The notes under the pieces were generated by a model. That model was not told the origin of the DNA. It ran no database searches and saw only the letters and a program-made list of their open reading frames with translations. Made by a program: the position numbers and the translations under genes. Of a DNA stretch of 64,000 nucleotides, positions 1 to 29,131 are shown piece by piece. Source of the DNA: Aureimonas sp. AU12 (GTDB taxonomy: Bacteria > Pseudomonadota > Alphaproteobacteria > Rhizobiales > Rhizobiaceae); NCBI RefSeq assembly GCF_001463705.1, contig NZ_BBWH01000024.1, positions 124,001 through 188,000 on the forward strand. Direction: 5' to 3'. How positions within the stretch are numbered: position 1 is the stretch's first letter; each line of letters starts with the position of its first letter.

Positions 1-1
1 G

Positions 2-1903
2 CGCTTTGCCGTCGGCCAGCGCGTGGTGGCGGCGCTGCCGGACTGCCTCGCCTCGCATGTGACGATCGCCGAGGATCGCCTCTTCGCCCTCGATCTGCCG
101 GCCGGCGCCTCGGGGCCCGAGAGCGCGACCATTCCCGTCGCCTTCATGACGGCCTGGTATGCGCTCAACGAGCTTGCGCGACTGAAGGCCGGCGAGCGGG
201 TGCTGATCCATGCCGCGACGGGCGGCGTCGGCCTTGCCGCGATCCAGATCGCGCAGCGCCTGGGCGCCGAGATCCATGCCACCGCCGGCAATCCGGAAAA
301 GCGCGAACACCTGCGCGCGCTCGGCGTCGCCGGGGTCTACGACAGCCGTAGCCTCGCCTTCGCCGAGGAGATCCGCACCGCGACCGGCGGGCGAGGCGTC
401 GATGTCGTCCTCAACTCGCTTTCGGGCGATATCTTCCAGGCGACGCTGCCGCTGCTGGCGCCCTTCGGCCGCTTCGTCGAGATCGGCAAGCGCGACATCA
501 TGGAGAACGGGCGGATCCCGATGGGGCTCTTCAACGAGAACCTCAGCTTCTCCTCCGTCGATCTCGACCGCCTGATGGCGGAGCGCCCGGCAACGGTCGC
601 CGCGCTTCTGGCCGACGTCGCCCGGCTGATGCGCGAGGGCGTCGTGACGCCGCTGCCGGTCACGCGCTTCAAGGTCGCCGACCTTCCCGACGCGCTGCGC
701 CACATGGCGCAGGCCCGCCACATCGGCAAGATCGTGGTGGATTTCGAGGACCGCGCCGACCTCGCGCTCGTGCCGCGGCGCGGCAGCGTGGCGGCGATCC
801 GCCCGGAGACGGCCTCCCTCGTCACCGGCGCCTTCGGCGGCTTCGGGCTCGAGCTCTGCCGGTCGCTTGTCGCGCGCGGTTGCCGCCATCTGGTGATGGT
901 GGGCCGTTCGGGCGCCGCGAGCGAGGCGGCGAAGGCGGCGCTCGCCGAATTCGCAAGCCTCGGCGTCCACGTCATCGAGGGTCGCCTTGACGTCGCCGAC
1001 CGGGCGGCGGTCGATGCGCTGCTCGGCGAGCTCGACGCGACAGGCGTTCCCCTGGCGGGCGTCTACCACGCCGCCGCCGTGCTCGACGATGGCCTCATCG
1101 ACAATCTCGACCCGGCGCGCATCGCGCGGGTGATGCGGCCGAAGGCGCTCGGCGCGCTGACGCTGCACGAGGCGACACTCGGTCGCCCGCTCGACGTCTT
1201 CATGCTCTTCTCGTCGGCAACCGCGCTGATCGGCAATCCCGGTCAGGCGAGCTATGTCGCGGCCAATGCGGTGCTCGACGCCCTGGCGCGTCGCCGCCGG
1301 GTCGAGGGCCTGCCGGCGACGGCGGTGGCCTGGGGCGCGATCGGCGGCGCGGGCATGCTCGCCGGCGACGGTCCGGCCGCGCGGCAGCTGGAACTCGCCG
1401 GCGTGCGCCAGATCCCGGTGCGCAAGGCCATCGCCGCCCTCGACGCCGTGCTGGCCGCGGACCTTCCCGATGGAGCGCTCGCCGTCATGGACATCGACGT
1501 CGCCACCTGGAGCGGCCTGTTCCCGCAGACCCGCGAGATCCCGCGCTTCAGCGCCCTGATCGCAGAAAGCGCACCGGGCGACGAGCGCTCGGGCGCCGCC
1601 GCGAAGCTCGCGGCGCTCGATCCGGCGGATCGCCTGCCGGCCGTCGTCGAGGGCATCACAGGCGTCGTCGCGGGGGCCATGAAGATGCCGGCGGCCCGCA
1701 TCCCGGCCGACCGCCCGCTCTCCGATCTGGGCATCGACAGCCTGATCGGCGTCGAGCTGCAGTCGGCGCTGGGCCAGCGCTACGGCGTGCAGATCTCGCT
1801 GCTCCAGCTGTCGAAGGGGGCGAGCGTCACCGATCTCGCGCGCTCGGTGCTCAAGCGCTTCGATCTCGATCCCGGCGCCGCGGGCGACCGGCTGGCGGCC
1901 TGA
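2..1903 (+). CDS. Type I polyketide synthase, C-terminal part (ER-KR-ACP), cut by left edge
   Basis: The reading frame is open from the first bases, so the true start lies outside the window; 633 residues are visible. The first ~250 residues are an enoylreductase of the medium-chain dehydrogenase type, with the nucleotide-binding stretch HAATGGVGLAAIQ. A ketoreductase follows (about 270-460) with the TGAFGGFG loop, the catalytic Ser pair (~404-405) and Tyr418 in GQASYVAAN. Its LDD motif (AAAVLDDG) is, by established rules, the signature of B-type reduction. An acyl carrier domain ends the protein, with phosphopantetheine Ser580 in LGIDSLIG. There is no terminal thioesterase. KS, AT and probably DH must lie upstream, so this would be a fully reducing module making a saturated acyl segment. 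The thioesterase gene begins 12 bp downstream, so the genes are probably co-transcribed. Confidence 0.92.
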   Translation, partial: RFAVGQRVVAALPDCLASHVTIAEDRLFALDLPAGASGPESATIPVAFMTAWYALNELARLKAGERVLIHAATGGVGLAAIQIAQRLGAEIHATAGNPEKREHLRALGVAGVYDSRSLAFAEEIRTATGGRGVDVVLNSLSGDIFQATLPLLAPFGRFVEIGKRDIMENGRIPMGLFNENLSFSSVDLDRLMAERPATVAALLADVARLMREGVVTPLPVTRFKVADLPDALRHMAQARHIGKIVVDFEDRADLALVPRRGSVAAIRPETASLVTGAFGGFGLELCRSLVARGCRHLVMVGRSGAASEAAKAALAEFASLGVHVIEGRLDVADRAAVDALLGELDATGVPLAGVYHAAAVLDDGLIDNLDPARIARVMRPKALGALTLHEATLGRPLDVFMLFSSATALIGNPGQASYVAANAVLDALARRRRVEGLPATAVAWGAIGGAGMLAGDGPAARQLELAGVRQIPVRKAIAALDAVLAADLPDGALAVMDIDVATWSGLFPQTREIPRFSALIAESAPGDERSGAAAKLAALDPADRLPAVVEGITGVVAGAMKMPAARIPADRPLSDLGIDSLIGVELQSALGQRYGVQISLLQLSKGASVTDLARSVLKRFDLDPGAAGDRLAA

Positions 1904-27710: not shown

Positions 27711-29131
27711 CGGCAGGATCCCTCTCCGCGGCCTGGGCCGACCTGCCGCGCGATCTTCGCGACGCCGTGCTCGCCAAGCTGCTCGCCCGCCGCCTGCGGG
27801 ATGGAGCGGAGGCGGACGAGCCCGCGCTCACCCGTATCGACCGCGGCGGGCCGGTGCCGGTCTCCCTCGAACAGGCCTTCATCCTGCGCCAGCAAAGGCG
27901 GTTCGGCGGACGCGTCGCCTGGACGCTCGCCGCGCCGCCGATCGTTCTCGACGACGTCGATGTCGATGCCGTCTGGCGCGCCGTGGCGACGCTCGCCCGC
28001 CGACACGACGTGCTGCACATGACGATCCGGGAGGAGGGCGGGCGCCTCCTGCAGCGGCTCGACCCCGATGCGCCCGCGCCGCTGAAGCTCACGACGCTGC
28101 CGCTGATGGCGGCGCTGACGGGCGCCGAGGGCTGGGTGCGTCGGCGATACGAGACGATGCTTGCCGAGCCCTTCGATGCCGCGACCGGACCGCTCTGGCG
28201 TGCCGAGCTCGTCAGCCGGGGCGAGCGCGGCGTCCTCCTCCTCTGCTTCTGCAGCCTCGTCGCCGATGGCGAGGCGCTGCATCTGATCGAGGCGGAGCTG
28301 CGCGCGCTTTATGCCGCCGAACTGGGAGGCACGGCGTCGCAGTCGCCGCCGCCGGCACTCGACTATGCCGACTACGTCGCAGCGCAGGACCGGCTGCTGC
28401 GGGATGCGCGCTTCGGCTCGGCGCTGTCGTGGTGGCGCGAGCGCCTCGCGGGCGGCCCGCCCGAGGGGTGGGCGGACGGGCGCGAGGGCCTCGGGCCCGC
28501 CCGCCTCTACGAGCAGGAGATCGGGGCCGAGACCGGCCGCGCGCTCGACGCCCATGCCGCCGCACACCGCACGACGCCGCATGTCGTGCTCCTCACCGAG
28601 TTCGCGGCGGTCCTGCGCGAACTAGACGCCACCGACGACGTCTGGGTGGCGTCGGCGACGACGTCGCGGCAGATCGCGGAGACGCAAACCATGATCGGCA
28701 CGTTCGCGCGTCTGCTGCCGCTGCGGCTTCGCTGGCCGGCAGCAGGCGATCCGCTCGGACCGGTCGGCGCGACGCTGCTCGAGGCCCTCGACCAGGAACC
28801 CGTGCCGCATGTCCTCCTGCAGGAGATGCTGGACGCCGCCCATCCCGCCGCGCCCTCGCCGTTCCGCTACATCTTCAACCATCGGCAGGTCGGCGAGGAT
28901 GCCGAAGGGGGTGATCGCGGCGACGTGCCGTTCCGCGCCGGACCCCGCCATGCCGAGGCGCATCGCGAGGAGCACATTCTGCTGATGGTCCTGCAATCGG
29001 GCGAACGGCGCCGGTTGCATTGGTACCTGCGAACGGACCGCTTCGGCCCGGCCGACGCCGAACGACTGCTCGCGGGCTTTCTCACGGCCCTGCGCCGAAG
29101 GCTCGGCATGCCGCTCGCCGGCTGGAATTAA
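27707..29131 (+). CDS. Discrete condensation-like protein lacking the catalytic histidines
   Basis: A 474-residue protein with the overall plan of an NRPS condensation domain: an N-terminal acceptor half (VDAVWRAVATLARRHDVLHM, in two pieces), a central floor, and a C-terminal half with ALSWWRERLAGG, a SATTSRQ stretch and FRYIFNHRQ. Where HHxxxDG is expected it has CSLVADG (Cys182, Ser183, Asp187), so both histidines, including the catalytic second one, are lost. The first ~45 residues (LSAAWADLPRDLRDAVLAKLLARRL) look like a docking or linker helix. It overlaps the giant synthase by four bases (ATGA) and is the last gene of the operon. It may be a structural platform, a recruiter of a release enzyme, or a condensation domain with altered chemistry. 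The family is clear; the role is unknown. Confidence 0.8.
   Translation: MTAGSLSAAWADLPRDLRDAVLAKLLARRLRDGAEADEPALTRIDRGGPVPVSLEQAFILRQQRRFGGRVAWTLAAPPIVLDDVDVDAVWRAVATLARRHDVLHMTIREEGGRLLQRLDPDAPAPLKLTTLPLMAALTGAEGWVRRRYETMLAEPFDAATGPLWRAELVSRGERGVLLLCFCSLVADGEALHLIEAELRALYAAELGGTASQSPPPALDYADYVAAQDRLLRDARFGSALSWWRERLAGGPPEGWADGREGLGPARLYEQEIGAETGRALDAHAAAHRTTPHVVLLTEFAAVLRELDATDDVWVASATTSRQIAETQTMIGTFARLLPLRLRWPAAGDPLGPVGATLLEALDQEPVPHVLLQEMLDAAHPAAPSPFRYIFNHRQVGEDAEGGDRGDVPFRAGPRHAEAHREEHILLMVLQSGERRRLHWYLRTDRFGPADAERLLAGFLTALRRRLGMPLAGWN

Follow-up and report, generated by a model that had tools for sequence, protein, structure and literature searches.

Gene content and limits of the cluster

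The stretch of DNA considered here, called the window in the following, comprises 64,000 nucleotides of Aureimonas sp. AU12 (positions 124001-188000 of contig C24 in a 4.67-Mb assembly of 92 contigs), and its left part carries most of a gene cluster in which fatty acyl-AMP ligases (FAALs), polyketide synthases (PKSs) and a multimodular non-ribosomal peptide synthetase (NRPS) are encoded together with an ABC exporter (Table 1). An earlier note on this DNA had read these genes as a FAAL-started PKS-NRPS cluster of an alphaproteobacterium that makes an acyl-beta-peptide and exports it by a DevBCA glycolipid-type exporter. Profile searches recovered each of the genes named there as an open frame with a family match, and domain calls bear out the FAAL start, since a FAAL with its own acyl carrier protein (ACP) stands upstream of the ketosynthase (KS) and condensation (C) domains. 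What had been called a PKS tail is indeed part of a PKS, but it is the end of a 2111-aa protein that starts left of the window and has, by Pfam, the full architecture KS-AT-DH-ER-KR-ACP. The note had proposed to extend the sequence leftward, and on this side the cluster continues for about 9.4 kb, which hold the remainder of the reducing PKS and, left of it on the minus strand, genes for an FAD monooxygenase, an MFS exporter, a type II thioesterase (TE1) and a phosphopantetheinyl transferase (PPTase). The monooxygenase is termed VioC/KMO-like, as VioC is its best NCBIfam match (123.6 bits, cut-off 760). Besides this left part, the earlier note had overlooked a KS-acyltransferase (KS-AT) unit without a carrier, the altered active-site motif of a stand-alone C protein (C5), and the fact that the reducing PKS-TE-FAAL set does not occur in a second genus.

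A 38.6-kb block from the PPTase to C5 with 14 annotated genes, among which there is no glycosyltransferase and no P450, is common to our genome and a second Aureimonas genome (G010) at 89.9% identity. As all matches between the two genomes fall inside the cluster and no similarity was found outside the block in the regions compared (84-104 kb of our genome, 80 kb of G010), the limits of the cluster can be placed at the ends of the block. The same core recurs in a genome of another genus of the same family (G619; its placement in genus and family, like that of G010, follows the labels of our genome collection).

Table 1. Features of the cluster inside the window, counted from its first base (A, adenylation; T, thiolation; E, epimerisation; pocket, substrate-binding residues of the A domain)
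Feature	Position	Strand	Basis and remarks
Highly reducing type I PKS, 3' part (ER-KR-ACP)	1..1903	+	2111 aa in full; start at C24:119568, 4.4 kb left of the window
TE2, type II thioesterase	1916..2716	+	PF00975, 151.6 bits; no ortholog in G619
FAAL1, stand-alone fatty acyl-AMP ligase	2713..4515	+	PF00501; no ortholog in G619
HlyD/DevB-like membrane-fusion protein	4535..5683	-	PF13437, PF16576; PRK03598 HlyD 127.8 bits; DevB family 118.2 bits, cut-off 129
DevA/LolD-type ABC ATPase	5680..6405	-	PF00005; Walker A at aa 44, LSGGQ at aa 148; DevA family best, 225.8 bits, cut-off 295.8
DevC/MacB-type permease (MacB_PCD + FtsX)	6402..7526	-	TIGR01185 158.5 bits, cut-off 290.35
Discrete ACP, LGADSIM, C-terminal helix-like tail	8090..8638	+	PF00550, 47 bits; in G010 and G619
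FAAL2-ACP loading protein	8635..10764	+	PF00501 + PF00550; 91% in G010, 61% in G619
Hybrid synthase KS-AT-[C-A-T]x4, 5630 aa, without thioesterase domain	10818..27710	+	Profile matches
KS-AT didomain	10875..13397	+	KS Cys and His motifs intact; AT with GYSLGE, HAFH
AT-C1 linker, helix-like stretch LFADQLELVRRTIVSQL	13398..13832	+	Stretch kept in three genomes
Module 1 C-A-T, pocket D-A-E / D / V-G / T-I-V	13833..16991	+	Motif reading
Module 2 C-A-T, pocket D-A-L / D / L-G / S-I-T	17052..20207	+	Motif reading
Module 3 C-A-T, beta-alanine-type pocket V-D-W / V / I-S / L-G-D	20265..23417	+	Motif reading
Degenerate condensation-family remnant, E-like by motif only (HPLLLDAMGW)	23430..24452	+	Precedes module 4
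Module 4 C-A-T, beta-alanine-type pocket V-D-A / V / I-S / F-G-D	24453..27602	+	Motif reading
C5, stand-alone condensation-family protein	27707..29131	+	PF00668, 105.6 bits; CSLVADG at the HHxxxDG site

Between our genome and G010, the ratio of non-synonymous to synonymous substitution rates (dN/dS) of the 14 genes ranges from 0.08 to 0.56 (highest for the discrete ACP), and the G010 genes are free of internal stops where they could be aligned. The dS values of 0.16-0.37 are similar to the 0.30 of gyrB. Together, this fits a cluster that has been maintained for long rather than transferred recently, although the flanks compared differ. In G619, ten core genes are kept with global-alignment identities, from which tblastn values differ by a few points, of 65% (KMO), 66% (MFS), 55% (TE1), 77% (DevC), 71% (DevA), 45% (a HlyD), 44% (discrete ACP), 61% (FAAL2), 63% (synthase) and 53% (C5). 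In the 80 kb examined there, orthologs of the reducing PKS, of TE2, of FAAL1 and of the PPTase were not found, and the single thioesterase of G619 is closer to TE1 (55%) than to TE2 (42%). Instead, a small ACP-like gene, a FabF-like KS (ACASG, HGTGT, KSVTGH) and, recognized by eye, a TolC/NodT-like frame lie between TE1 and the exporter. Which genes and domains are present, how well they are conserved and how the presumed acyl supply differs can be read from the sequences themselves: the two genera have a common core, and G619 has an ACP/FabF-like pair where Aureimonas has the reducing PKS, TE2 and FAAL1. The recurrence of the block in G010, the dN/dS range and the ten genes in a second genus argue against a chance assemblage; the cluster is real, complete and under selection, and it is of a known kind with unusual features.

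In our collection, FAAL2 has near-identical matches in two of 21 genomes of the genus, namely our own and G010 (91%), and matches better than an E-value of 1e-110 in two of 394 family genomes, a sample without G010, namely our own and G619 (61%). At E<=1e-100 it was found in ten of 385 class genomes, none of which except our own exceeded 44% identity, and among the best 80 loci listed in a scan of genome contigs, which possibly left out records near the window, the best segments reached at most 41%. In 110 other loci, with short and partly overlapping flanks, no match to DevB, DevC or KMO was obtained at E<=1e-12, and one (L040) had a weak DevA match. C5 was searched in the 385 class genomes at E<=1e-30 and retrieved only our own copy, with G010 and G619 not reported there. 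No description of the cluster was found among the open-licence papers listed by the literature searches; for one Aureimonas genome, PMC7422900 gives one T1PKS cluster and no NRPS or NRPS-PKS cluster.

A search for an empty site yielded four genomes with a relative of the right-flank gene, which have only this gene, and in one case also its neighbour, in common with the flanks of our genome. The gene directly left of the cluster (L007:7480-10224), which we take to be MprF-like, looks like an extra paralogue: 18 of the 20 other genomes of the genus have a match, and these, like the second own copy on contig C28, are only 37-41% identical to it. As to the host, the alphaproteobacterial origin named in the earlier note agrees with a 23S rRNA piece on contig C58, 900 bases of which match Aureimonas sp. 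AU12, a strain from soybean, at 100% and five other Aureimonas records at 98.1%. A 16S rRNA gene was not found in the assembly, and as the identical record is a 13.4-kb entry of the plasmid collection, a small replicon may carry the rRNA operon in our genome as well.

The hybrid synthase and its partner proteins

The synthase is conserved over its full length, with 89% identity in G010 and 61% (tblastn) or 63% (global alignment over 5546 positions) in G619. Its AT carries motifs that we take to be of the malonyl type. No carrier domain follows the AT: the 151-aa linker to C1 has zero Pfam matches at E<=1 in our cluster, and no carrier is visible by eye in the corresponding linkers of G010 and G619. 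Conserved helix-like stretches are present in both this linker and the tail of the discrete ACP. We tentatively propose the discrete ACP as trans carrier of the KS-AT module, mainly because this module has no carrier in cis, and also because the ACP, the linker stretch and the tail stretch are conserved; the outside matches of the ACP, considered below, lend the proposal weak support. Loading of the KS by FAAL2 would agree with the neighbourhoods of the best outside matches of its ACP, as in seven of the 12 distinct loci listed (L061, L033, L031, L034, L039, L059 and L026, the latter identical with L118), the downstream sequence reads from the ACP straight into a KS. An olefin synthase was also considered on account of the FAAL-ACP-KS-AT front end, but the sulfotransferase-thioesterase end of such enzymes is absent.

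The four modules contain four A-T pairs, as expected for a multimodular NRPS, and HHxxxDG is intact in C1 to C4. The pockets of A3 (VDWVISLGD) and A4 (VDAVISFGD), together with the lysine of NGKxDR, fit VDxVISxGDK, which we take to be the code of beta-alanine-specific A domains. The beta-peptide of the earlier note thus stands, with this assumed code, for two of the four modules. The pocket residues of A1, A2 and A4 are identical in the three genomes, and A3 shows one I-to-V change. Within the synthase, A3 and A4 (54%) as well as C3 and C4 (44%) are nearest to each other, and T3 is closest to T2 (55%). The E-like remnant between modules 3 and 4 reaches only 11.2 bits with the Pfam Condensation model (cut-off 30.6); in all three genomes HPLLLD or HPLLID replaces HHxxxD while HPLLxDAxGW is kept. 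With 77.5% identity to G010 and a dN/dS of 0.32, it is the least conserved domain of the synthase, and an epimerisation of beta-alanine would be meaningless.

C5 lacks the HHxxxDG active site of canonical stand-alone condensation enzymes. Aligned to Txo2, our protein has CSLVADG at this site; G010 likewise reads CSLVADG and G619 CSLLVDG, so that CS is kept in all three, and the dN/dS between our genome and G010 is 0.25. C5 is 21-25% identical to the C domains of the synthase. A low-confidence model from a five-row alignment (pLDDT 63.8; 36.8 from the single sequence) matched only condensation-family structures among the 50 matches listed, with TM scores by query length of 0.40-0.49, and as this alignment included C1-C4, the model is neutral as to the condensation subtype.

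The reducing PKS has an AT motif, GHSVGE, that is presumably of the malonyl type. Its top NCBIfam matches remain below the cut-offs, with 1223 bits for PKS_plus_SDR (cut-off 1740) and 1222 bits for Pks2 (cut-off 2400), and the same is true for the matches of FAAL1, where a generic NRPS/PKS model is followed by FAAL families. A zeamine-type hybrid with a polyunsaturated fatty acid synthase, as treated in a section of PMC13291983, was considered and rejected, with the PfaA-type synthase model scoring 323.7 bits against a cut-off of 1010.1.

The exporter

A MacB_PCD/FtsX permease, an ABC ATPase and an HlyD adaptor are encoded in this order (C-A-B) in one operon and constitute a MacB/ABC3-type tripartite exporter. 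A TolC-type partner is not among the 14 Aureimonas genes; in G619, the TolC/NodT-like frame stands beside DevA. Membership in the DevBCA glycolipid exporters was not supported. The DevC and DevA models (DevBCA is represented in NCBIfam by TIGR01185, TIGR02982 and TIGR02971) are the best NCBIfam matches of permease and ATPase, but all three subunits remain below the family cut-offs, and in a tree of 30 permeases, a small sample rooted by choice on three cyanobacterial sequences, ours falls into a clade of 22 (100/100 support) without the three cyanobacterial DevC. In common with the DevBCA-HgdD exporter of heterocyst glycolipids, it has a separate permease, ATPase and adaptor; unlike that system, it is encoded in the order C-A-B instead of B-C-A, its permease stands apart, and no hgl genes were recognized. 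All six non-cyanobacterial operons inspected had the order C-A-B, and the three cyanobacterial ones had B-C-A. Moreover, a lipopeptide and macrolides are among the reported substrates of MacB-type pumps, and Anabaena paralogues of DevBCA are reported to have several functions including drug resistance (part of PMC8277102).

The nearest plasmid-borne relatives of the permease, from Nitratidesulfovibrio vulgaris (45%), Methylosinus sp. C49 (42%) and Beijerinckia (41%), also score below the DevC cut-off (133-152 bits). In the stretches fetched around them, a KS occurs in two of the three and a FAAL in one: the neighbours are a FAAL/PKS/NRPS locus in Methylosinus, a phenolic-lipid-like PKS in Beijerinckia, and nif genes in Nitratidesulfovibrio, where the operon, the closest of the plasmid relatives, lies on pDVUL01 of strain DP4 about 4.4 kb upstream of nifH. 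The Beijerinckia PKS exceeds the PfaA cut-off (1156 bits). An excerpt of PMC3098273 assigns a Type P phenolic-lipid synthase to Beijerinckia, from which phenolic lipids are not known, and the plasmid PKS may be that synthase. Three weaker plasmid relatives (Methylocalor, Azospirillum, Agrobacterium) have no PKS among their annotated neighbours, and among 28 further class genomes with a match, no KS or FAAL was found near DevC-like genes in 19 neighbourhoods of 6.6-40 kb, including that of a permease (G326) 38-40% identical to ours. The permease had no sequence match in the PDB. Its place in the tree, the scores below the cut-offs and the precedents of MacB-type pumps (PMC8277102, in part) make an amphiphile the likely cargo, and a glycolipid is not indicated by the sequences.

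Proposed product, alternatives and related systems

We infer that the cluster probably makes and exports an acylated tetrapeptide of amphiphilic character with beta-Ala-beta-Ala at its end. In Aureimonas, the reducing PKS, FAAL1 and TE2 would produce a reduced acyl chain from malonyl units, and in G619 the ACP/FabF-like pair would take their place. FAAL2 would adenylate the acid and load it onto its own ACP, and the KS-AT would add one malonyl unit with the separate ACP as carrier; as the module has no ketoreductase, a beta-keto acyl group is expected. Module 1 would then add the first residue, which on account of the acidic pocket residues in A1 might, with low confidence, be basic, module 2 would add the second one, and modules 3 and 4 a beta-alanine each. 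Because the synthase lacks a terminal thioesterase, release could be carried out by the shared TE1 or by C5. The VioC/KMO-like oxygenase would tailor the product, and export would involve the ABC exporter with a TolC-type channel, for which the G619 cluster holds a candidate frame, and/or the MFS protein.

Several observations weigh against this pathway. An AT motif lies upstream in only five of the 12 outside matches listed for the discrete ACP; the assignment of the A-domain codes is provisional, and a search of the open-licence full texts for the code strings yielded no paper. The altered motifs of C5 and the E-like remnant make the release step less certain. Two exporters, ABC and MFS, compete for the cargo, and in G619 the HlyD gene is separated from DevC-DevA and lies left of KMO, so that the operon is not kept as a whole. 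Finally, with three clusters found, the system is rare.

What alternatives exist for a single exported acyl-tetrapeptide? The locus could in principle make two products, with the reducing PKS, FAAL1, TE2 and the ABC exporter serving a separate lipid or glycolipid and FAAL2, KS-AT and the NRPS making the lipopeptide. The reducing PKS does have a FAAL and a thioesterase of its own, and relatives of the permease lie beside a phenolic-lipid-like PKS and a glycosyltransferase in Beijerinckia (see PMC3098273, in part) and near nif genes in N. vulgaris; yet DevC and DevA remain with the NRPS core in G619, where there is no reducing PKS, and none of the 14 genes annotated in the Aureimonas block encodes a glycosyltransferase; we regard two products as improbable. 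Even less probable appears an ordinary drug-efflux pump that came to lie inside the cluster by accident. The drug resistance reported for Anabaena DevBCA paralogues (PMC8277102, in part) and the lack of KS and FAAL in the fetched stretches of all 19 further alphaproteobacterial DevC-like loci would agree with such a pump, but none of the 14 cluster proteins is better conserved than the permease (97% in G010, dN/dS 0.08), its 77% identity in G619 is the highest of the ten shared proteins, and it is found inside the cluster in two genera.

With the acyl-tetrapeptide remaining the preferred product, it has to be considered what C5 does. By analogy to the streptothricin protein ORF18, a stand-alone C protein with HQxxxDM (excerpt of PMC11546977), C5 might possibly catalyse the release of the chain even though it lacks the usual histidines, with a soluble amine or alcohol as acceptor. 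The missing terminal thioesterase of the synthase, the adjoining and conserved position of C5, and the finding that mutation of the second histidine does not always abolish activity (same excerpt) speak for this tentative view; both histidine positions are altered in C5, however, TE1 could carry out the release as well, and no gene that would supply an acceptor was recognized. A more doubtful idea is that C5, itself non-catalytic, serves as a platform that gives the FAD monooxygenase access to the peptide bound to the last carrier, much as the X-domain of glycopeptide synthetases, which has HRxxxDE, recruits P450s (PMC6565677, in part). C5 and the VioC/KMO-like oxygenase are indeed both kept in the three clusters, but X-domains sit within the terminal module of the NRPS and bind P450s, whereas C5 is encoded by a separate gene, the block has no P450 and the partner would be a flavoprotein. 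C5 has the condensation fold in common with ORF18, the X-domain and SgcC5, and its CSxxxDG is a change different from both HQxxxDM and HRxxxDE. It is a speculative and rather unlikely extension that C5 founds a new functional class, with CSxxxDG and either release of beta-peptides without catalytic histidines or recruitment of a flavin monooxygenase, coupled to an exchangeable acyl cassette and a split KS-AT/ACP module in the making of a secreted lipo-beta-peptide in Aureimonas and the related genus.

FAAL-initiated PKS-NRPS lipopeptide clusters include the cyanobacterial puwainaphycin type, with which the Aureimonas cluster shares the FAAL-ACP start, the KS-AT extension, NRPS modules and an exporter, while it differs by a KS-AT without a carrier of its own beside a discrete ACP, two FAALs, the reducing PKS, the lack of a terminal thioesterase and the stand-alone C protein without HH. 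The locus on Methylosinus sp. C49 pMSC49a (216-264 kb) likewise has a FAAL, a type I PKS, an NRPS, a thioesterase and a related C-A-B exporter, there with TolC, but PKS architecture and gene order differ, matched domains or proteins are only 26-51% identical, and a phenolic-lipid-like PKS, Rieske and SCP2 genes are additional; in its NRPS stretch, no gene is listed at 221248-223994 although KS and AT matches lie there. The reducing KS-AT-DH-ER-KR-ACP beside a FAAL resembles mycobacterial FadD-Pks2/MAS-type loci, and the Pks2 model is matched over nearly its full length, but besides the score below its cut-off, the PKS is only about 35% identical to those in the fetched mycobacterial loci, and its AT has GHSVGE. 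The cluster is therefore best read as a variant of the FAAL-initiated lipopeptide clusters, the unusual features being the split polyketide module, the altered stand-alone C protein and an acyl-supply part that differs between genera.

A plant-associated genus here offers a complete cluster that has defined limits, has been tested by comparison among genomes and has a product class open to testing, and a C-A-B exporter related to DevBCA adjoins lipid or lipopeptide megasynthases in three Hyphomicrobiales lineages (the Aureimonas family, Methylosinus and Beijerinckia). Three features are of interest for the engineering of assembly lines and for the functions of proteins with the C fold: acyl-supply genes that differ around a constant NRPS core, a KS-AT whose carrier apparently resides on another protein, and a conserved condensation protein in which both motif histidines are missing.

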